Positions 10,988 through 20,198 of a stretch of 33,066 nt of DNA are shown piece by piece (the first letter of the stretch is position 1; each line of letters begins with the position of its first letter). Under the pieces are notes generated by a model. It was not told where the DNA came from and made no database searches. It saw only the letters and a list, made by a program, of their open reading frames with translations. The translations under genes and the position numbers were made by a program. Origin of the DNA: Paraburkholderia ginsengiterrae (GTDB lineage: Bacteria; Pseudomonadota; Gammaproteobacteria; Burkholderiales; Burkholderiaceae); the NCBI RefSeq assembly GCF_001645125.1, contig NZ_LXKA01000352.1:1-33066 (forward strand). The letters are read 5' to 3'.

Positions 10988-11203
10988 TTATCCCCTCCAA
11001 TGTCCCGGCACCCACTGCCAGTGATTGCCCTCCCAGCGGTAATGGCCCTTTACCCAGACATAGCCCGGTGCGGGCGCGACGGGTACCACCTCGACGAGCG
11101 GAGCGGGCTGCGGCGGCCGGGCAGGCTCGACCACGCAGGCTGACAACAAGGCGGCGCAAAGACCCACGATCGAAATGGCGCGTACGTTCGATGTGATTTT
11201 CAT
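10988..11203 (-). CDS. Small WXXGXW-repeat lipoprotein
   Basis: A 71-residue lipoprotein precursor. The signal ends in a lipobox, LLSAC, then a Pro-rich stretch (VVEPARPPQPAPLVEVVPV) and a C-terminal aromatic repeat unit, YVWVKGHYRWEGNHWQWVPGHW, matching the YXWQ/WXXGXW repeat type seen in small Burkholderiales envelope proteins. ATG at 11203 follows AGGAGAGG. Its C-terminal unit is related to that of the larger protein at 16038-16358. The function of the family is unknown to me; a surface or outer-membrane-inner-leaflet location is expected from the lipobox. Confidence 0.8.
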   Translation of the reverse strand: MKITSNVRAISIVGLCAALLSACVVEPARPPQPAPLVEVVPVAPAPGYVWVKGHYRWEGNHWQWVPGHWRG

Positions 11204-11314: not shown

Positions 11315-12472
11315 CTAGGCCCGCACGATGCCCGTCAACGGCCGCACGGCCGCTGTCTGGCCGAACAGCGCGGACGCCGTGCGCTGCGGATCGAGCCCGA
11401 GACTTTCGCTCGCGGTGCCGGCAATCAGCGCGTCGAGCGAGGTGGTGGGTTTCAGGTCGCGTGCTTCGTAAAGGTTGTGCGGCGCGAGACCCGGCCAGTC
11501 CGCGATCACGCGCCCGCCCTGCACCGAACCGCCCAGCACCATCGCCACCGAACCGGTGCCGTGGTCGGTGCCGCCCGTGCCGTTGGCGGCGGCGGTCCGG
11601 CCGAACTCCGTGGCGACCAGCACGGTTGTTTTGCTCCACAGCGGACCCATGCCGTCGCGCAATGCCGCGAGCAGGGTGTCGAGCGCCTTCAACTGGTTGG
11701 CGAGGCGCGCGTTCTGCGCACTGTGCGTGTCCCACCCGCCGGTTTCGATCATGGCGATCCGCGGACCGTCGTCGCGTGACAGGAAGCCCGCGGCGAGCTT
11801 GCCCAGGCTGGCCGGATCCTGGCGCGCACCGGCGTCGCCCGCGAGGCCGCGCGCGGTCATCGCGGACTCCCACAACGGACGCAATTGCGCGTCCTGGTCG
11901 TACAGTTGCGCAACCCGCGTGAGCAGATCGTCGGGCGCGGCCGGCAACGCCGACGGCGCGTACGACGTCACCGCCGCCGTGCCGCGCAACGCCATCGGCA
12001 CGGTGGGCGCAAAGGCGATCGCGTTTTCGCGCGTGGCGGGCAACTGGGCGGCGAGCCGGTTCAGCCAGCCGTCCTTGGTCTGATACGGCGACGTGCCGCC
12101 GGTCTCGAGCACGTTCTGCCCGTCGAAGTGCGAGCGGTCGCGATACGGCGACGCGACCGCGTGCACGAACAGTGCCTGGTGCTGTGCATACATCGCGGCG
12201 GTCTGCGCCAGCGCGGGATGCAGCGCGAAGGTGCCATCGAGCCGGGGCGCGTTGGACGTGTCGATGGCGAGCGCGCCACGCAGCGTGGCGTAAGCGGGCT
12301 CGGCGTACGGCACGACGATGTTCAGACCGTCGGCCGCGCCGCGCTGGATCACGAACACGAAACGGCGGTCGGTGGCGACGCTCGCGAACGCAATCTGCGG
12401 CGACACCAGAATCGCGCCGGCACCGGCAGCGGCGACGCTCAAGAACTTGCGGCGTGAGAGCATGGTATTCAT
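11315..12472 (-). CDS. DUF1501 family protein, Tat-exported
   Basis: A 385-residue protein of the DUF1501 family, related to the alkaline phosphatase/sulfatase superfamily; no enzymatic activity is established to my knowledge. A twin-arginine signal opens it (LSRRKFLSVAAAGAGA), so it is exported folded. Family segments visible are FVFVIQRGAADGLNIVVPY near the N-terminus, SHFDGQNVLETG, MIETGGWDTHSAQNARLANQ, TEFGRTAAANGTGGTDHGTG (likely metal-binding His/Asp) and the C-terminal LGLDPQRT. ATG at 12472 forms an ATGA overlap with the DUF1800 stop; ATG at 12463 has a better-spaced GGAG and is an alternative. DUF1800-DUF1501 pairs are widely conserved. Here they lie behind an ECF sigma operon. Confidence 0.9.
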   Translation of the reverse strand: MNTMLSRRKFLSVAAAGAGAILVSPQIAFASVATDRRFVFVIQRGAADGLNIVVPYAEPAYATLRGALAIDTSNAPRLDGTFALHPALAQTAAMYAQHQALFVHAVASPYRDRSHFDGQNVLETGGTSPYQTKDGWLNRLAAQLPATRENAIAFAPTVPMALRGTAAVTSYAPSALPAAPDDLLTRVAQLYDQDAQLRPLWESAMTARGLAGDAGARQDPASLGKLAAGFLSRDDGPRIAMIETGGWDTHSAQNARLANQLKALDTLLAALRDGMGPLWSKTTVLVATEFGRTAAANGTGGTDHGTGSVAMVLGGSVQGGRVIADWPGLAPHNLYEARDLKPTTSLDALIAGTASESLGLDPQRTASALFGQTAAVRPLTGIVRA

Positions 12473-14004
12473 CTCCGTTGAAAGTCCGGCGAGACCAGCA
12501 ACAGCGCAATGGCCGTGGAGGCGCTTTCGGCATGTGATACAGCAGAGGCCGTCGGCGCGCTGAGCGAACCGGCCAGCAAGGTCTGGCCGAGCGCGCGCGC
12601 ATCGAGCCGGTCGCCGACTTGCGACGCGAAACGCTGCGCCACTTCGACCCGGCGCACGAGCGCGTCGGGCGCGGCCCAGCTCGCGGCAATGTCGTCGTAA
12701 CCGGCCGGCGAACCCGGTCGCCAGACTGGCTGGCCGAGCTGCGTGAGGATGGGCGCCGTCTGCAGCTTGCCGAGGTCCTGCCAGCCGAGCCCGCGCATCG
12801 TGGATAGGGTCCACTCCCACGGCGTCTTGAACTTCACCGCGATGGGCGACCACGCTTGCGGCAGGTCGATCAGCGCGCGGTACATCGTGGGCAGATCGCC
12901 GCCGCTGCGCTCAAAAGCGCTGGCCAGATGTTCGCTTACGCCAGCCGGCGGATTGTCGGCGACGAAATGACGGGCCAGCTTGGTGCCGATATGCTGTGCT
13001 GTCGCCGGCGCGCTCGCGAGGTCATGCAGGATCGCTAGCGCCTGCTCTTCGCCGGGCTGGTCGTAACGGCGGCCCATGATGGTCCGCGTACCCGGCTCGT
13101 GCAGCGCGGCGCGAAACACGAAGGTGCCCGGCGCGGCGTTCTCCTGCAAGCGCGCCCTGCCTGCCGCGCCGCCATTGGCCGGGTTGCCCGCGAGACTCCA
13201 GCCGGTCAGCGCGCGGGCGAATTCGGTCACGTCGTCCTGGCTGTAGCCGCTGCGCACGCCGAGCGTGTGCAGTTCCATGATTTCGCGCGCCAGGTTCTCG
13301 TTCAGGCCGCGCTTGCGCTCCGGATTGCGTTGCGCGGCGCGCATGGCCGCCATGCTGTCCGGCCCGACCGAGCGCGTCTGGTCGAGAAACAGTTGCATGG
13401 CCGGATGGCGTTCCACAGCCACCAGCATGTCCTCGAAGCGGCCGAGCACGTGCGGGCGAATCGCCTCGGCTTCGAACGAGCCGGCGAGCGCCGCGACGCC
13501 GGGCTTCTCGGTGGACACCGCGAAATGATTGGCCCAGAAGTGAACGAGCCGTTCGACGAATGGCGCCGGCGTGGTCAATGCGCTCGCCACGCGTGCATTC
13601 ACCGATGAGCGGTACATGTCGAGTATTTCGCCACGAAAGGCTTTTCGTTCGGCCTCCCTGGCAGTTTCCGCCGCGTTCTTCGGTGTGGCTTGTGCGTTAG
13701 TTTGGGCGTTCGCTTGCGCATTGATCTGCGCGGTGGTCTGGGCGGTCGCCGGATTGGCGGCGGCGCCCTCGCCCGCATTCGACCTGGCCTGCTGATTGAG
13801 GCGCATGCGCTGTTGCAGCAGTTCCGTCGACAGCGCTATCGAGTCAGGCTGGCCGGCCCATGCGGGCGGCCGCGGCTGATACTGTTCAAACTGCGCCAGC
13901 AGCCAGCCCTTGGGGTCGGCGGGCGGTGAATCGTTGGCGCGCGCGCCCAGGCCGAAGCGGTTCAGCGCGATCGCCGCGGCGTTCAGGTTCGGTGAGTTGG
14001 ACAT
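12469..14004 (-). CDS. DUF1800 family protein
   Basis: A 511-residue DUF1800 protein, partner of DUF1501; no biochemical function is established as far as I know. Typical features are ALNRFGLGARANDSP at the start, VHFWANHFAVS, NENLAREIMELHTLGV with the YSQDDVTEFARALTGW segment, MGRRYDQPGEEQALAIL, VAKHF-like LARHFVADNPP and GQPVWRPGSPAGYDDI. Residues about 86-110 are a low-complexity Gln/Asn/Ala/Thr insert encoded by 12-bp DNA repeats. There is no obvious signal peptide. ATG at 14004 follows GAGGGTGGT. It lies 73 bp downstream of the sensor gene, and this gap contains a candidate ECF promoter; the 3' end overlaps DUF1501. Confidence 0.9.
   Translation of the reverse strand: MSNSPNLNAAAIALNRFGLGARANDSPPADPKGWLLAQFEQYQPRPPAWAGQPDSIALSTELLQQRMRLNQQARSNAGEGAAANPATAQTTAQINAQANAQTNAQATPKNAAETAREAERKAFRGEILDMYRSSVNARVASALTTPAPFVERLVHFWANHFAVSTEKPGVAALAGSFEAEAIRPHVLGRFEDMLVAVERHPAMQLFLDQTRSVGPDSMAAMRAAQRNPERKRGLNENLAREIMELHTLGVRSGYSQDDVTEFARALTGWSLAGNPANGGAAGRARLQENAAPGTFVFRAALHEPGTRTIMGRRYDQPGEEQALAILHDLASAPATAQHIGTKLARHFVADNPPAGVSEHLASAFERSGGDLPTMYRALIDLPQAWSPIAVKFKTPWEWTLSTMRGLGWQDLGKLQTAPILTQLGQPVWRPGSPAGYDDIAASWAAPDALVRRVEVAQRFASQVGDRLDARALGQTLLAGSLSAPTASAVSHAESASTAIALLLVSPDFQRR
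13691..13750 (-). repeat. Five imperfect 12-bp tandem repeats within DUF1800 gene
   Basis: Five consecutive 12-mers (for example TGGGCGTTCGCT, TGCGCATTGATC, TGCGCGGTGGTC, TGGGCGGTCGCC on the plus strand) encode a four-residue AQxN/AQxT-like repeat in the protein. The repeat keeps the reading frame and sits in a linker, so copy number could vary between strains without inactivating the gene. Confidence 0.7.
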
Positions 14005-14025: not shown

Positions 14026-14061
14026 TACTCTTTAAACGTCCGCCGCGAGAAAATCCGTCGC
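14026..14061 (-). promoter_or_regulatory. Predicted ECF-sigma promoter of DUF1800-DUF1501
   Basis: Minus strand: GCGACGGATTTT (14050-14061), 11 nt, then CGTTTAAAGAGTA (14026-14038), 22 bp before the DUF1800 ATG. The same two blocks with the same 11-nt spacing occur at 16401-16436 before a WXXGXW gene (24 of 36 positions identical). Taking GCGACG as -35 and CGTT as -10 core gives a 17-nt spacer, a usual ECF arrangement. Recognition by the neighbouring sigma factor is inferred. Confidence 0.6.
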
Positions 14062-14077
14062 CACCGCCGCTATTTTT

Positions 14078-14620
14078 TTATTCGCCCGACGATTCGCTGG
14101 ATGCTTCGCTCGCCGGGTTCTGCGCCGGCTTTTGCGCCGGCTTCTTCGCATTCGCGGCCGGCAGCGGCTCACGCCACTGGCCATGCACTTTCAGACTGTC
14201 GGCGAACGCGACCCGCTCCTCGGGCGACAAACTTGCCGCGAAATCGGCCACGCTGCCTTCCACCTGCGCACGCAGACGGCTGTCGGCCTCACGCGTACGG
14301 GCCAGCGCGGCGTCGAGCGCCGCGCGATCGAACTGCGGCGCCGCCAGCAGGCTCAACACGTCGCGGCGCCCTTCGCGGGCCTCACGGGCATACTGCCTGC
14401 CCTCGCGCCGCGCATTCTTCAAGCCGTCGACAAAGGCCTTTTGCCGGTCGGCGGACAGGCTATCCGCGGCGAAACGCAGCGCGGACTGCTGGGCCCGCAC
14501 CGGCGCAGTCGCGCCGCGCGCAGTGAACCATTGATAAGCACCACCGACAATCGCGCCCAGCAGAAACACGTTGAACACGAGCGAGGCAATCAGCACGATT
14601 TTCCACGACCGGCAGTTCAT
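14078..14620 (-). CDS. Periplasmic sensor-like protein (heavy-metal-sensor / Spy-CpxP type)
   Basis: A 180-residue protein with an N-terminal membrane anchor (about 7-29, WKIVLIASLVFNVFLLGAIVGGAYQWF) and a long alpha-helical periplasmic domain rich in Arg/Ala/Glu. Motifs such as LSADRQKAFVDGLKNARREGRQ and LSPEERVAFADSL recall the LTxxQ-type repeats of CpxP/Spy and the CnrX-like heavy-metal-sensor family. A Lys/Pro/Ala/Ser-rich tail follows. Few His/Cys/Met residues are present, so metal binding is not supported. ATG at 14620 overlaps the anti-sigma stop (ATGA). It is the third gene of the ECF operon and probably modulates the anti-sigma factor in response to an envelope signal. Confidence 0.78.
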   Translation of the reverse strand: MNCRSWKIVLIASLVFNVFLLGAIVGGAYQWFTARGATAPVRAQQSALRFAADSLSADRQKAFVDGLKNARREGRQYAREAREGRRDVLSLLAAPQFDRAALDAALARTREADSRLRAQVEGSVADFAASLSPEERVAFADSLKVHGQWREPLPAANAKKPAQKPAQNPASEASSESSGE

Positions 14621-15036
14621 TCGCCGCTCCAATCGGCGGATGATCCACCGAAGCTCGAAGTTAAATAGCTCGACTCGTGCACGGGCGGCACCGTCTCCGT
14701 CAGGACAAAGAATGACACGGCAAAAGCGCCGGCCAGACCACCCAGCAGGCCCACGCCTGCAACCGCCGCGCCCGACCACCACAAGCGCCGCCGCGGCGCC
14801 GCGGGCTGCCGCACCGGCGCGCTGTCGAGCACGCGCTGCCGCAACGCCTCGCCCGGTGGTTCGAGCCTGTCGGCGGCGAGCCATGCATCGAGGCCGGCTG
14901 CCTCCGCCAGCACCGTATCGGCTTCGACGCGATGCTGCCGCGCCCACTCCTCGGCCGCCGCGCGCTCCTGTTGCGGCCAGCGGCGCGGCTCGGCACCATA
15001 GGCCTCGACAATCTGATGGAATCTTTCGGGCGTCAT
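14617..15036 (-). CDS. Putative membrane anti-sigma factor
   Basis: A 139-residue protein with a cytosolic N-terminal part (about 1-80, MTPERFHQIVEAYGAEPRRW; Trp- and Arg-rich helices), one transmembrane segment (about 85-112, [18 protein letters not shown] to AVSFFVL) and a short periplasmic tail. No zinc HxxxCxxC motif is visible, so it is not a ZAS-type anti-sigma. It overlaps the sigma gene upstream (ATGA) and the sensor gene downstream (ATGA), the strict coupling expected for sigma/anti-sigma partners. The function is assigned mainly from this arrangement. Confidence 0.75.
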   Translation of the reverse strand: MTPERFHQIVEAYGAEPRRWPQQERAAAEEWARQHRVEADTVLAEAAGLDAWLAADRLEPPGEALRQRVLDSAPVRQPAAPRRRLWWSGAAVAGVGLLGGLAGAFAVSFFVLTETVPPVHESSYLTSSFGGSSADWSGE

Positions 15037-15593
15037 GACTTGTCCTTGCTAAGGCCGCTGCCGGCCAGTTGAGCGCGCAGATTGCGGCGCGCACGGGCCA
15101 GCAGACTTTCCAGCGCATCGACCGTGATGCCCATCAGGGCGGCGGCGTCGATGTTCGACATCTCCTGGTAGTAATTGAGCACCAGCGCCTCGCGCTGGCG
15201 TGCCGGCAAAGCGGCGAGCGCGTCGCGTATGCGCTGGTCCTGGGCTCGCGCTTCGAGCCGCGCATCGGGAAGCGCGGCGGGATCGACCTCCTCGGGCATC
15301 TCGTCATGCGGCTCCTCGCGCCGGCCGCGCAAGCGGTCGTAGCAGAGATTGAGCGCGACGCGGTGAACCCACGTGTCGAATTTCGCCTCGCCTTCCCGCC
15401 AGCGCGACGCCTGCTTCCAGATGCGCACGAACACCTCCTGGGCCACATCTTCGGCTTCCATGCGGTCGCCCAGCATGCGCGTGGCCAGCGCAAGCAGACG
15501 CGGCAGCTTGCGCGAGACGAGCGAACGAACGGCGGCCGGATCCTGCCGGCCGACCCGTTCAAGCAGCTCCGCGTCGGGATCGCGTTCGCTCAA
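15033..15593 (-). CDS. ECF-type RNA polymerase sigma factor
   Basis: About 186 residues from TTG 15593. Region sigma2 holds ALATRMLGDRMEAEDVAQEVFVRIW and FDTWVHRVALNLCYDRLR; sigma4 holds LAALPARQREALVLNYYQEMSNIDAAALMGITVDALESLLARARRNL. A linker of acidic residues separates them. The frame is open upstream to GTG 15752, which would add 53 residues not typical of ECF factors; TTG 15593 has GGGAG 9 nt upstream and gives normal family length, so it is preferred but not certain. The gene leads an operon with the anti-sigma-like and sensor genes (two ATGA overlaps), then DUF1800-DUF1501. I saw no copy of the predicted ECF motif before it. Confidence 0.9.
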   Translation of the reverse strand: MSERDPDAELLERVGRQDPAAVRSLVSRKLPRLLALATRMLGDRMEAEDVAQEVFVRIWKQASRWREGEAKFDTWVHRVALNLCYDRLRGRREEPHDEMPEEVDPAALPDARLEARAQDQRIRDALAALPARQREALVLNYYQEMSNIDAAALMGITVDALESLLARARRNLRAQLAGSGLSKDKS

Positions 15594-15867
15594 GGCGTGC
15601 CGCTCCCGCACGCCGGTTCGACGCGGCGCGTGAGCCGTGCGGATCGTGCTGATTGCCGCGGCACGCGCCATCGCGATGCGAACCGCATCTGCCCGAAACG
15701 AACGGACCTGACAGGCGGTGACGCCGGACGAACATGGTTCACTAGCCGCCACTCCTTCTGATGCAATTCACCCTGATTTCATCCTCACGCGAATCGTTGT
15801 GCGCGCACCGGTTTGAACAGACCACGCGGGCGGCGCGTGCAGCACGCGGTGCCCGCCACAACCACAA

Positions 15868-15969
15868 TCAATATACGACGACGGCCGGACGATAGTAGGC
15901 CGGCCGCGCCGGGACCACCACACAGCCGGCGAGCGTTGCCGCCAGCAGAATGACCACAAGCGTTTTCAT
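15868..15969 (-). CDS. Very small lipoprotein (33 residues)
   Basis: A short minus-strand gene encodes a 33-residue peptide whose first 16 residues form a lipoprotein signal with lipobox LAGC (Cys16), followed by VVVPARPAYYRPAVVVY and a TGA stop. The mature peptide would be only 18 residues, Pro/Tyr/Val-rich. The part after the Cys resembles the beginning of the WXXGXW lipoprotein at 10988-11203 (CVVEPARP), so it may be a shortened relative or a degraded copy. The SD is weak (AGGCAGATTGCT). It sits between the ECF operon and the larger WXXGXW gene, both on the same strand. It could also be expressed as one transcript with 16038-16358. Confidence 0.6.
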   Translation of the reverse strand: MKTLVVILLAATLAGCVVVPARPAYYRPAVVVY

Positions 15970-16037
15970 AGCAATCTGCCTGGTTCAGGTAAGCACAGCG
16001 AGTAGCACCGGAAGAAGCACGCCGCGGCGCTCCCGCG

Positions 16038-16358
16038 TCAAGCCCAATGGCCTTCAACCCAACGCCAGTTGGGACCGCGCTGCACCCAATGTCCCGGTAC
16101 CCAGCGATAACCGACGCGCACCGGCTGCCAGTGGCCCGGCACCCACACGTAGCGGCCATGATTCCAGCGCCAGCGGCCTTGATCCCAGACATAGCCCGAA
16201 CGCGGCGCCGGCACGACCTCGACGCGCGGCGGCGGCGGCGCCATCGGCGCGACGATCACCGCCTGAGCGAAAGCCGGCGCGGCAGTGAGCGTGCCGGCGC
16301 AAACCAGCACGGCGGCCAGCATGGACGTCAGAAGGCGACCCGGTTGAGTGGATGTCAT
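16038..16358 (-). CDS. WXXGXW-repeat exported protein
   Basis: A 106-residue protein with a signal peptide (about 1-31, ending TAAPAFA) and a Pro-rich start (MAPPPPRVEVVPAPRSGYVW). Four aromatic repeats follow, with WDQGRWRW, WVPGHW, WVPGHW and WVEGHW, the YXWQ/WXXGXW type. No lipobox is present, unlike the related lipoprotein at 10988-11203. ATG at 16358 has GGAG 8-9 nt upstream; the frame is open further upstream, but without a signal sequence. A predicted ECF promoter lies 43 bp upstream, linking it to the sigma operon. Family function is not known to me; tryptophan-rich repeats of this kind may bind glycans or stack in the envelope. Confidence 0.85.
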   Translation of the reverse strand: MTSTQPGRLLTSMLAAVLVCAGTLTAAPAFAQAVIVAPMAPPPPRVEVVPAPRSGYVWDQGRWRWNHGRYVWVPGHWQPVRVGYRWVPGHWVQRGPNWRWVEGHWA

Positions 16359-16400
16359 GTTGGTTTCTCCGATAAGAGTCGAAGCCAGTAGCGGCCTCGT

Positions 16401-16436
16401 TACTTCTTGAACGCGGCAGCCGCAAAAATCCGTCGC
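16401..16436 (-). promoter_or_regulatory. Predicted ECF-sigma promoter of the WXXGXW gene
   Basis: Minus strand: GCGACGGATTTT (16425-16436), 11 nt, CGTTCAAGAAGTA (16401-16413), ending 43 bp before the ATG at 16358. Block sequences and spacing match the motif at 14026-14061. The rest of the gap up to the phosphoesterase gene (16437-16756) holds no recognisable gene or clear sigma70 promoter. Confidence 0.6.
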
Positions 16437-16756
16437 GGAATTTCGTAGGACAGCAGCGTTGGAAAGATGAGGGAAAAACGGCAGACACGTCCGTGCAACG
16501 GGCGGCATCGCCGTCGTTCTCAGATAGTGGACAAACGTTGGCAGAACGACAGAGTAAGTTACGACTTTGAAAGAAACAGGAGGGCTTCGGTAATGTTCGC
16601 GCCCCGAAATTTTAACCATCGAATGGTTCAATGCGCGCAGTTTGTCGCGGCAAGACCACCAGCACTAGCTGTATTTCTAACAATAACCCCCAGCGAACCT
16701 CCACACGCATCGCAATGGAAACGCTGGAAGGCGTAGTCGAATCTGGAGCCAGTCAA

Positions 16757-18538
16757 ATGTTTTGTAGAAGCCTTTTACCCCTTTTGCCCATCCCGTTTGC
16801 CGCGATGCTGGCGCTCGTGGCATGCAGCAACAATAGCGTGAGCACCCCGGCGCCCACCGCCGCGGTGTCGGCACAGGATGCCGTGGTCACGACCACGCCG
16901 ATCAAGCACCTCGTGGTGATCTTCGGCGAGAACGTCTCGTTCGACCACTACTTCGGGACCTATCCGCAAGCCGCCAATCCGGTCGGCGAGCCGCAATTCA
17001 CGGCAGCCTCGGGCACGCCGTCGGTCAACAACCTCAGCGCCAACAACCTGCTCACGACGAACCCGAACGCGCTGGCCACGTCGCCGAACACGGCGGGCCG
17101 CTCGGTCGGCAGCGTGGCGATCGCCGGTCTCGGCCTGCCTGCTTCCGATCTGCTGCCGTTCCGCCTGGACCGCTCGCAAGCCAACACCTCGAGCCAGAAC
17201 CACGCGTACGCGGCGGAGCAGCTCGCCTATAACAACGGCGCGATGGACTCGTTCCCGTTGTTCACGGCGTCGGGCTCGACCATTGCCGGCAGCACGGGCG
17301 CGTTCGCCACGAAGGGCCAGGTGCTCGGCTACTTCGACGGCAACACGGTCACGGCCATGTGGAACTACGCGCAGAACTTCGCGATGAACCAGAACGCGTA
17401 CACGGACACGTATGGTCCGTCGACGCCGGGTGCGCTCGAAGTGGTGTCCGGCCAGAACAACGGCGTCGTCGTCTCGGGCGGCACCTCGGCCAACGCGATT
17501 CCGGACTCGGCCGGCGGCTTCACGATGATCGGCGACCTCGACCCGACCGGCGACGTCTGCACGACGGCGGCAGGCAGTGTGGTAACGGGCACGATGTCCT
17601 CGAAGAACAAGAACATCGGCGACCTGCTCAACGCCAAGGGTCTGACGTGGGGCGGCTTCATGGGCGGCTTCAACCTCGCGACGGTCAATGCCAACGGCAC
17701 GACCGGCTGCGCGCGCTCGACCTTCTCGCAAGTGCTGAATGCAACCAAGACCGACTACGTGCAGCACCATGCGTGGTTCCAGTACTACGCCAGCACGGCT
17801 AACCTCGCGCATACGCGCCCGACGTCGGCGGCACTGATCGGCGCGACCGATCCGCTCGACAACACGGCGACGCCGGTTCACCACCAGTACGACACCGACG
17901 ACTTCTTCGCGGCGGTGAAGGCGGGCAACTTCCCGTCGGTGAACTTCCTGAAGGCGCCGGCAATCAGCGACGGCCACCCGGGCAACTCGGACCCGATCGA
18001 CGAACAGGCTTTCGTCACGAAGGTGATCAACTTCCTGCAGCAGCAGCCTGACTGGAACAACACCGCCGTGATCATCGCTTACGACGATTCGGACGGCTGG
18101 TACGACCACCGCTATAAGGCGCCGAGCAGCGCATCGTTCGACTCGACCACGGCGCAATCCGCCGGCGGCAAATCGGTGGCGGGCAGCGACAATCTGAGCG
18201 GCGTGGGCCAGTGCACGGCAGCGGGCGCGGTTCAGCCGCAAGGCGTGAATGGCGGCGCGGTGAACGGCCGCTGCGGCCCGGGTACACGTACGCCGTTTAT
18301 CGTGGTGTCGCCGTGGGCGAAGGCCAACTTCGTCGACGATACGCCGATCACCCAGGCGTCCGTGGTGAAGTTCATCGAAGACAACTGGCTGGGCGGTCAA
18401 CGCCTGGGCGGCGGGTCGTTCGACGCGACGGCCGGCAGCATCGTCAACATGTTCAACTTTGCCGGCAGCGGCAACCTCGCGCCGCTGTATCTGGACCAGA
18501 ACCTCGGTACGAAGCTGGCAACGGCGCCGGCAAGCTGA
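16757..18538 (+). CDS. Lipoprotein phosphoesterase (AcpA acid phosphatase / phospholipase C family)
   Basis: A 593-residue protein of the phosphoesterase family that includes bacterial non-haemolytic phospholipase C and Francisella-type AcpA. The N-terminus is a lipoprotein signal with LVAC (Cys23). The metal/nucleophile region HLVVIFGENVSFDHYFGTYP (about 51-70) carries the family Glu-Asn; later come HHAWFQYYAS, the IIAYDDSDGWYDH segment (about 438-450) and the RTPFIVVSPWAKANFVD/SVVKFIEDNW end. These enzymes hydrolyse phosphomonoesters or phospholipid head groups in the periplasm or outside the cell. ATG at 16757 has TGGAG upstream and starts the signal; the frame is open from 16631 but without such features. 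It is followed by a terminator and a cytochrome c peroxidase gene. Confidence 0.9.
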   Translation: MFCRSLLPLLPIPFAAMLALVACSNNSVSTPAPTAAVSAQDAVVTTTPIKHLVVIFGENVSFDHYFGTYPQAANPVGEPQFTAASGTPSVNNLSANNLLTTNPNALATSPNTAGRSVGSVAIAGLGLPASDLLPFRLDRSQANTSSQNHAYAAEQLAYNNGAMDSFPLFTASGSTIAGSTGAFATKGQVLGYFDGNTVTAMWNYAQNFAMNQNAYTDTYGPSTPGALEVVSGQNNGVVVSGGTSANAIPDSAGGFTMIGDLDPTGDVCTTAAGSVVTGTMSSKNKNIGDLLNAKGLTWGGFMGGFNLATVNANGTTGCARSTFSQVLNATKTDYVQHHAWFQYYASTANLAHTRPTSAALIGATDPLDNTATPVHHQYDTDDFFAAVKAGNFPSVNFLKAPAISDGHPGNSDPIDEQAFVTKVINFLQQQPDWNNTAVIIAYDDSDGWYDHRYKAPSSASFDSTTAQSAGGKSVAGSDNLSGVGQCTAAGAVQPQGVNGGAVNGRCGPGTRTPFIVVSPWAKANFVDDTPITQASVVKFIEDNWLGGQRLGGGSFDATAGSIVNMFNFAGSGNLAPLYLDQNLGTKLATAPAS

Positions 18539-18700
18539 GCGGCCGCCTTGCGCGCCGGGCGCCGCGCCCCTGTGCGCGTCCCGGCGTAGTGTGCGAAAGC
18601 GGCTTGTGTGCGCTTTCGTGCCACTCGTGCCTTTCGCGAATCACGCCGGGCAACGCTGCAGATCGCGGAGCGTGAAACCCGGCAAGCTGTAGATGGGCGT

Positions 18701-18739
18701 CGAGCCAGCGCATCCGTGCTGGCTCGATTTTGCTTTTTT
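18701..18739 (+). terminator. Intrinsic terminator after phosphoesterase gene
   Basis: A perfect 9-bp stem CGAGCCAGC/GCTGGCTCG with an 8-nt loop is followed by ATTTTGCTTTTTT. It ends 31 bp before the peroxidase ATG, so the peroxidase gene needs its own promoter or read-through. Confidence 0.85.
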
Positions 18740-18770
18740 GCACCCACTCGAATTTCCAGTCACCACCGCC

Positions 18771-20198
18771 ATGAATCATCCTTCAGACGCCGCCCTGCCT
18801 TCGCATCTGCCCGCGGGCGGCGAGCCCCGCCGCTCGTGGCGCAGCCTGCTCGCGTGGAGCGCGGCCGGCATCGCGCTCGCGTTGGGCGTCAGCAGCGCGT
18901 ATGCGCTCATCTACCCGGAGCGCATGCCGCCCGCCGTCGGCGCGATTGTCGAGGACATCACCGGCGCGAATCCGCATCCGGTGCATCTGCTGCGTCCGCA
19001 AGCCGTGCCGCTCAGCGCGGTGGCGCTGCTCGGCAAACAGATTTTCTTCGACACGAGCTTGTCGGCGTCCGGCACGCAGTCGTGCGCGTCGTGCCACTCG
19101 CCGCAGCATTCATATGGGCCGGATAACGCATTCCCGGTTCAGCTCGGCGGCGCGCATATGAACCAGGCCGGATATCGTCCGCCGCCCTCGCTCACGTATC
19201 TGTACCGGCAGGCGCCGTTCAGCATCGGCCCGGATCAGGGCGACACCGACGTGCCGGTGGATATGACCCAGCTGGCGACGCAAGCCGCCGGCGTGCAGCG
19301 CGCGCAGAAGACCGAGCTCGCCGCGCCCGCCGCTCCGGCCATGGTGCCGCAAGGCGGGCTGTTCTGGGACGGCCGCGCGGACACCTTGCAGGATCAGGCG
19401 ATCGGACCGCTGCTCAATCCGGTGGAGATGGCCAATGCTTCGCCGGAAGATGTGGCGCGCAAGCTGCTGCAAACGAAGTACGTGGACCAGTTCAAGCAGA
19501 TCTTTGGCCCTGGGATCGTCAGTAATCCGAGCTTGTTGATTTCGGAAGCGATGTTCGCCGTGGGACGCTATCAGACCGAGGATTCATCGTTTCATGCCTT
19601 TACCAGCAAGTACGACGCCTGGCTCGAAGGCAAGGCACGGCTGACGCACGCCGAACTGCACGGCCTGCAATTGTTCAACGACAAGGACAAGGCGAACTGC
19701 GCGGGCTGTCACTTGAGCCAGCCGACCAAAGACGGCTTGCCTCCGGTGTTTACCGATACGCAGTACGAAGCGCTGGGCGTACCGCGCAATCCCGCGCTTC
19801 CCGCCAATAAGGACCCGAAGTTCTTCGATATGGGCGTGTGCGGACCGTTCCGCAGCGATCTTGCCAAGGAAACGCAGTATTGCGGCATGTTCCTGACGCC
19901 GACCCTGCGCAACGTGGCTGAACGCAAGGTGTTTTTCCACAACGCCGTGTATCACGACCTCAAGCAAGTCATGGACTTCTACAACCTGCGCAATACGGCG
20001 CCCGAGAAGATCTATCCGCGGGACGCCTCTGGCAAGGTGCAGAAGTACAACGATCTGCCGGTGCAGTATCACGCCAACGTCGACGTCGCCGACGCGCCAT
20101 TCGACCGCAAGTTCGGTGATCAGCCGGCCATGACCGATGAGGACATTCAAGACATCATCGCGTTCATGAAGACACTGAGCGACGGGTATAAGAACTGA
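18771..20198 (+). CDS. Di-haem cytochrome c peroxidase (CcpA/MauG family)
   Basis: A 475-residue protein with a membrane anchor or uncleaved signal (about 24-46, LLAWSAAGIALALGVSSAYAL) and two c-type haem sites, CASCH (105-109) and CAGCH (310-314). Family segments LGKQIFFDTSLSASGTQSC, GLFWDGRADTLQDQAIGPLLNPVEM and PTLRNVAERKVFFHNAVYHDLKQVMDFYN are present. The family reduces H2O2 with electrons from cytochromes or, in MauG, oxidises protein residues. At 475 residues it is longer than classical CcpA (~330), because of the anchor and inserts. ATG at 18771 is the only start next to the anchor; the SD is weak. It shares orientation with the upstream phosphoesterase but is separated by a terminator. 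Confidence 0.92.
   Translation: MNHPSDAALPSHLPAGGEPRRSWRSLLAWSAAGIALALGVSSAYALIYPERMPPAVGAIVEDITGANPHPVHLLRPQAVPLSAVALLGKQIFFDTSLSASGTQSCASCHSPQHSYGPDNAFPVQLGGAHMNQAGYRPPPSLTYLYRQAPFSIGPDQGDTDVPVDMTQLATQAAGVQRAQKTELAAPAAPAMVPQGGLFWDGRADTLQDQAIGPLLNPVEMANASPEDVARKLLQTKYVDQFKQIFGPGIVSNPSLLISEAMFAVGRYQTEDSSFHAFTSKYDAWLEGKARLTHAELHGLQLFNDKDKANCAGCHLSQPTKDGLPPVFTDTQYEALGVPRNPALPANKDPKFFDMGVCGPFRSDLAKETQYCGMFLTPTLRNVAERKVFFHNAVYHDLKQVMDFYNLRNTAPEKIYPRDASGKVQKYNDLPVQYHANVDVADAPFDRKFGDQPAMTDEDIQDIIAFMKTLSDGYKN

Follow-up and report, generated by a model that had tools for sequence, protein, structure and literature searches.

Comparison with described systems

The CnrYXH system of Cupriavidus metallidurans combines an extracytoplasmic function (ECF) sigma factor, a membrane anti-sigma factor and a periplasmic protein of the Metal_resist family. 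The same three-part layout, with a candidate protein in the anti-sigma place, is displayed by a locus of Paraburkholderia ginsengiterrae, carried by a stretch of 33,066 nucleotides (contig NZ_LXKA01000352.1, hereafter the window), in which two copies of a bipartite promoter-like element flank a presumed ECF sigma operon. CnrH is not the nearest solved structure to the sigma of the window (4cxf, E 6e-11, against 1e-17 for the best). A CnrX-style sensing of metal was considered and found weak. The Metal_resist protein of the window has a single histidine in 180 aa and, judged by the ligands of CnrX, a similar binding of metal is for this reason doubtful.

In Caulobacter vibrioides, the EF-hand gene cabp adjoins the ECF gene sigV (May 2026, PMC13171946). 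The transcription start of cabp, mapped by 5′ rapid amplification of cDNA ends (5′RACE), lies 40 nt before the ATG, and the promoter is given as GGAAA-N13-CGTTCA. A cabp reporter is low without sigV and reaches about 3-fold above wild type on sigV overexpression; the authors call direct recognition of the promoter unproven and describe calcium chelation and acid as inducers (PMC13171946). Since a primer printed in the article holds gcgacgga, the cabp promoter is probably GCGACGGAAA-N13-CGTTCA, the same element as in the window. Both loci place an ECF sigma gene beside a gene for a secreted protein and have the same promoter spacing, and for Caulobacter both sigV dependence and autoregulation are reported. 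The window, however, has no EF-hand gene upstream of sigma, the place being taken by a WXXGXW gene (PF12779) and a small lipoprotein gene, and it has a second site for DUF1800-DUF1501. For Caulobacter sigV, a separate promoter located within cabp is reported, and in the accessible text of the article the GCGAC block does not figure among the promoter elements of cabp.

Two other types of promoter served to fix the register. ECF26 promoters of S. meliloti show GGAAT at 15-17 nt from CGT (three counted; PMC6180224), and the Caulobacter SigF promoter is GTAACC-N16-CGAA. Using this register, we took CGACGG as the -35 of the window element. The ECF26 factors RpoE1 and RpoE4 resemble our case by a small ECF regulon including the sigma operon and by a CGT-type -10, but CGACGG-N16-CGTT departs from the ECF26 promoter, and the ECF26 anti-sigma domain (COG5662) and target genes are different.

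A start-site map of B. cenocepacia reports, in its accessible parts, no alternative sigma motifs (PMC4603805). Among the articles opened in a literature search that left published ECF-group motif tables aside, only PMC13171946 touches this promoter class; the motif may already be predicted in those tables. The initial annotation of the window suggested a previously unnamed class. This can be upheld only in part, as the 2026 article mapped a promoter of this kind in Caulobacter and compilations of ECF-group motifs exist.

Two sites flank the presumed sigma operon

The element GCGACGGATTTT-N11-CGTTYAARRAGTA occurs twice on the minus strand of the window (Table 1). From its 3′ end, site 1 is 42 nt away from the ATG of the WXXGXW gene (16358) and site 2 is 21 nt away from that of DUF1800 (14004). 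The copies are identical at 24 of 36 bases, distributed as 12/12 in the left block, 2/11 in the spacer and 10/13 in the right block. Strand, N11 spacing, identity and position just 5′ of start codons agree with the initial annotation, as does its placing of the two copies around an ECF sigma operon, the sigma, anti-sigma-like and Metal_resist genes lying between them. No third match is present in the window even with 3 mismatches allowed, and 100 shuffles gave none. The whole genome (8,533,041 bases) contains no further copy with up to 3 mismatches, and the looser pattern CGGATTTTN{11,15}CGTTNAA recovers from it the same two sites and no others. With a spacer of N14 or N15 and two mismatches, matches in this genome come near the background (23 versus 16 for the reversed control with N14, 34 versus 26 with N15).

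We defined an ECF-type promoter as a -35 block followed after 16-17 nt by a CGT(T/C) -10, close to a start. Both sites read CGACGG-N16-CGTT. By its sequence, the promoter is thus of the ECF type, with the usual register and an unusual -35; the latter is continued by A(T/A), to which a T run is frequently added in Burkholderiaceae. In our view, both sites very probably act as promoters recognised by the ECF sigma factor whose gene they enclose.

Conservation in Burkholderia and Paraburkholderia

Loci of relatives were fetched by the sigma protein alone, and the best 80 of 171, all from Burkholderia and Paraburkholderia, were scanned with GCGACGGAT-N14/15-CGTTNAA allowing up to 2 mismatches. Gene order is largely kept, with homologues of WXXGXW in 74 loci, of the small lipoprotein in 60, of the anti-sigma candidate in 80, of Metal_resist in 79, of DUF1800 in 79 and of DUF1501 in 78. 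All 80 loci have a site in the 420 bp preceding the first gene (exact in 64), and all 79 loci with DUF1800 have one in the 150 bp preceding that gene (exact in 67), the -10 ending 26-78 nt from DUF1800 starts estimated by alignment. Other matches on the same strand amount to 6 in 975 kb. In ten loci the Metal_resist-DUF1800 gap widens to about 1 kb or more, and site 2 remains with DUF1800. Its presence there is not universal: three loci (L220, L221 and L222) are devoid of a site before DUF1800, the best candidate having 5 mismatches.

Chance, or the mere shared ancestry of neighbouring DNA, is an explanation of this similarity to which we give almost no credit. Descent does contribute to the conservation seen in the 80 loci because the species are related, and conserved coding sequence can mimic the blocks, as shown by 28 of the 30 near-matches on the opposite strand, which fall in a conserved coding stretch of DUF1501, and by three matches in EF-hand coding sequence at distant loci. 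Yet the two copies of a single genome share both blocks and hardly any spacer base; over the 80 loci conservation is far stronger in the blocks than in the upstream flank and most of the spacer columns; unrelated genes at distal places have the site as well; and distant homologues of the sigma carry it far above shuffles.

Co-occurrence of site and sigma factor

Among 145 genomes of the genus, the strict site is found in 113 of 114 sigma-positive versus 4 of 31 sigma-negative ones, the reversed control pattern giving 2 matches. At the family level (399 genomes, 8 matches of the reversed pattern), 122 genomes have both, 16 the sigma only, 11 the site only and 250 neither (Fisher 3e-70, a p-value which treats related genomes as independent). 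The genus has at least 150 sites. Among the 150 listed, 108 lie within 8 kb of sigma on its strand and none near it on the opposite one; sigma-less genomes account for 2, and 40 are located elsewhere. Searched in this genome and its relatives, the motif precedes WXXGXW and DUF1800 genes and tracks the sigma. The ECF promoter of a small regulon postulated in the initial annotation is in line with this enrichment upstream of genes and with the co-occurrence, which extends over the 80 loci, the 399 genomes and the 35 distant homologues described below.

The same data bear on the proposal that a different sigma factor, SigT/EcfG-like or ECF26-like, reads these promoters, which we find improbable. 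The Caulobacter authors do report effects of SigT and liken their promoters to the SigU consensus (PMC13171946). However, the presence of the site follows this particular sigma across the family; GGATT stands here at 13-14 nt from CGTT, in contrast to the GGAAT and the longer distance of ECF26 promoters (PMC6180224); and the -35 in the register of SigF is CGACGG instead of GTAACC.

Some individual genomes were opened. The sigma match of G130 has two in-frame stops. Two loci (L131 in genome G026 and L227 in G131) possess a WXXGXW gene and an intact site, with the sigma gene not found or present only as a fragment; a sigma since lost may have left these sites behind. At L225 and L226, second sigma copies (54% identical) are accompanied by WXXGXW and Metal_resist, no DUF1800 being detected in 9 kb, and the -10 of their site is longer by one base (CGGTTTAA).

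Distant sigma homologues

The 1.1 kb upstream of 35 more distant homologues (35-66% identical) was scanned. Six come from other families of the class (35-40% identical), and 29 from a phylum sample of 219 genomes, being those among 40 other PRK05602 places that were given a locus. With up to 3 mismatches, 30/35 have a match on the sigma strand, compared to 0/35 for the reversed pattern, 2/35 for the opposite strand (both belonging to divergent site pairs) and 22/700 shuffles; with up to 2 mismatches the figures are 20/35 versus 2/700 shuffles. As several homologues are congeneric, they do not represent 35 independent cases. The gene after the site usually encodes a secreted EF-hand protein and is followed by sigma, in the loci whose reading frames were inspected, the order also found for cabp-sigV. 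A homologue of the anti-sigma candidate is found in 13/29 loci of the phylum sample and 6/6 of the other families; for Metal_resist the corresponding figures are 13/29 and 0/6, the 29 loci ending about 1.5 kb past sigma. Two genomes of another class (L264 and L265) carry two sites, one heading the operon and the other immediately past Metal_resist, at about 0.4-0.5 kb from the DUF1800-DUF1501 frames that follow.

Several observations weigh against recognition of the element by this sigma factor, or against its generality. Strict sites are missing from 16 of the 138 sigma-positive genomes of the family; the five of these that were opened (G473, G481, G506, G718 and G738) have head sites with 1-2 mismatches, and three of the five (G481, G718 and G738) show none before DUF1800. 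Conversely, 11 sigma-negative genomes of the family carry a strict site. Three were opened: in G086 it is at a contig end, in G739 it precedes a carboxylesterase gene, and in G732 no gene of the sigma operon was detected. Among the distant homologues, five of 35 (L245, L246, L250, L257 and L261) gave no convincing match, and three of the 30 matches (L242, L254 and L263), none of them among the 20 closer ones, fall inside EF-hand coding sequence, so that 27/35 is the count to use. The GGAAA form had 0 matches in 18 genomes of family f215. For Caulobacter, the authors credit SigT as well as SigV (PMC13171946), and we only infer that SigV is the PRK05602 member of that species: of 14 control genomes, C. 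vibrioides alone gave a PRK05602 match, which was above the cut-off.

Recognition by the sigma of the operon nevertheless remains our preferred reading. We would further suggest, as more likely than not, a phylum-wide system of envelope signalling built on PRK05602-type sigma factors, which would share one conserved and unusual promoter (GCGACGGA-N15/16-CGTT). The first gene of this system would be swapped between lineages (secreted EF-hand or WXXGXW). DUF1800-DUF1501 would have been recruited in Burkholderiaceae and at least one genus of another class; in Burkholderiaceae the system would also control secreted hydrolases, together with an OmpR-type regulator in some species. An uncharacterised ECF family would then gain a defined promoter and a list of targets, and the Caulobacter cabp promoter could be re-read as one member of a wider class.

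Two side observations concern these distant loci. The codons of EF-hand loops (GGCGACGG...) can pass for the left block, for example at L242 and L263, and are a trap for motif scans of such operons. About 740 bp before sigma, L218 and L219 have back-to-back divergent sites, each near a gene with a signal-peptide-like start.

Likely autoregulation

The initial annotation held that autoregulation was not supported, as no copy of the motif was found before the sigma gene. This absence does not speak against autoregulation because the upstream copy, site 1, heads the co-directional run that contains sigma. A terminator scan of the minus strand found none between the WXXGXW and sigma genes. In four related loci (L011, L012, L014 and L016) only about 27-47 bp separate the end of WXXGXW from sigma. 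In 7 of the 80 loci (L024, L045, L046, L059, L060, L068 and L080) no WXXGXW was detected upstream of sigma, and the site precedes sigma itself or a small gene in front of it. From these short distances and these seven loci, we read site 1 as most likely serving the sigma gene and reject the absence of autoregulation; from the arrangement of the sequences, a positive autoregulation of sigma via site 1 is likely.

Targets away from the sigma locus

The only N14 site with one mismatch in this genome is C363:7500-7529; a gap of 30 nt separates it from a downstream gene for a secreted hydrolase. Homologues of this hydrolase (41-92% identity in the cluster) carry the site at ten loci, spread over Burkholderia, further Paraburkholderia and a third genus, g252, whose two loci have a site-gene gap of 176-184 nt. 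The Pfam match of the hydrolase is Abhydrolase_6, weak and below the cut-off in the three members scanned. Beta-lactamase-fold serine hydrolases form another site-bearing cluster, of 5 loci, three of which were compared with Pfam. DUF1800-DUF1501 homologues bear the site at three loci (L124, L130 and L133). We opened 23 of the 40 distal sites listed for sigma-positive Paraburkholderia. Response-regulator genes account for 8, which the site precedes or with which it shares a run, hydrolase genes for 6, hisC for 3, DUF1800 homologues for 2 and a common protein for 2; the last 2 (L121 and L155) gave nothing sensible. The regulon of this genome, small and conserved in part, likely comprises, as deduced from these positions, WXXGXW-sigma-anti-sigma-Metal_resist, DUF1800-DUF1501 and the distant secreted hydrolase.

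The recurrence of response regulators raises the question whether the motif is instead the operator of another regulator, for instance of OmpR type, with the sigma of the operon as one more target. Genes for such a regulator bear the site at 7 homologous loci of one cluster (L114-L116, L120, L126, L127 and L129; Pfam run on one). We nonetheless judge the operator unlikely: this genome has no exact site elsewhere and its single one-mismatch N14 site precedes a hydrolase, the element is in two parts with an ECF register and keeps a short distance to the DUF1800 starts, and the Caulobacter copy sits at a mapped transcription start (PMC13171946).

A site-like sequence is located about 85-90 bp before hisC (named by reading) in four genomes (L117-L119 and L168), including this one, here with 2 mismatches. 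At L128 and L158 the site precedes a gene whose product, about 500 aa long, shows 69% identity between the two genomes.

Proposed mechanism

By analogy with described ECF systems, the membrane anti-sigma candidate, perhaps governed by the Metal_resist protein, would hold sigma until an envelope signal is perceived. The freed sigma would then direct RNA polymerase to the conserved element. Site 1 would drive the run from WXXGXW and the lipoprotein through sigma and anti-sigma to Metal_resist, constituting the positive loop; site 2 would drive DUF1800-DUF1501, possibly with the WXXGXW-like lipoprotein; and the third site, on another contig, the secreted alpha/beta hydrolase. Concerning the signal, calcium limitation and acid are possible leads borrowed from Caulobacter. 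In such a scheme DUF1800 and DUF1501, both of unknown function, become tied to a regulated envelope response, and the envelope genes become testable.

Genes of the locus

All features of the locus are on the minus strand, in the order site 1, WXXGXW, the 33-aa lipoprotein, sigma, the anti-sigma candidate, Metal_resist, site 2, DUF1800, DUF1501 and the WXXGXW-like lipoprotein (Table 1).

Table 1. Coordinates of the two sites and of the genes of the sigma locus in the window
Feature	Position	Strand	Basis or remark
Putative promoter site 1, operon head	16401..16436	-	-35 region GCGACGGAT 16436..16428, -10 CGTTCAA 16413..16407
Secreted WXXGXW-repeat protein (PF12779), first gene of presumed sigma operon	16038..16358	-	Pfam
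33-aa putative lipoprotein (MKTLVVILLAATLAGC...)	15868..15969	-	Homologue in related loci (see text)
ECF sigma factor, NCBIfam NF004113/PRK05602	15033..15593	-	TTG start assumed from upstream GGGAG and homologues
Anti-sigma candidate	14617..15036	-	AYGA(D/E)xxRWPxxER in a helical N-terminus of about 72 aa, followed by one hydrophobic helix
Metal_resist-domain protein (PF13801), candidate periplasmic sensor	14078..14620	-	Pfam
Putative promoter site 2	14026..14061	-	-35 region GCGACGGAT 14061..14053, -10 CGTTTAA 14038..14032
DUF1800 protein (PF08811), presumed target of site 2	12469..14004	-	Pfam
DUF1501 protein (PF07394)	11315..12463	-	Pfam
71-aa WXXGXW-like putative lipoprotein 3′ of DUF1501	10988..11203	-	Read by eye, no family search

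Sigma and anti-sigma genes overlap by 4 bases, as do anti-sigma and Metal_resist genes. The sigma protein matches NF004113 (PRK05602) with 293.4 bits, above the curated cut-off of 208; regions 2 (PF04542) and 4 (PF08281) are also above cut-off and no region-3 family is found, which is the architecture of an ECF factor. Across 46 sequences, each column of its region-4 helix, A.ESLL.R.RR, reaches a conservation of at least 80%; ESLTxRGKR is the form of one subgroup. Such a conserved helix fits with a constant -35.

Upstream of the locus, no exact site precedes the divergent neighbours at 16754-20198, which encode a PF04185 phosphoesterase and a di-haem peroxidase (PF03150).

For the anti-sigma candidate of the window, neither Pfam nor NCBIfam gave a match, and its role is proposed from position and co-conservation. 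The structure model predicts helices at 3-13, 22-34, 36-55 and 63-72, a four-helix N-terminus obtained with confidence, and a further hydrophobic helix with less. A structure search with this model returned no anti-sigma factor among the matches listed, which is uninformative either way. With 22 members aligned, the candidate family defined by AYGA(D/E)xxRWPxxER at the N-terminus is found next to genes for PRK05602 sigma factors across several families and classes.

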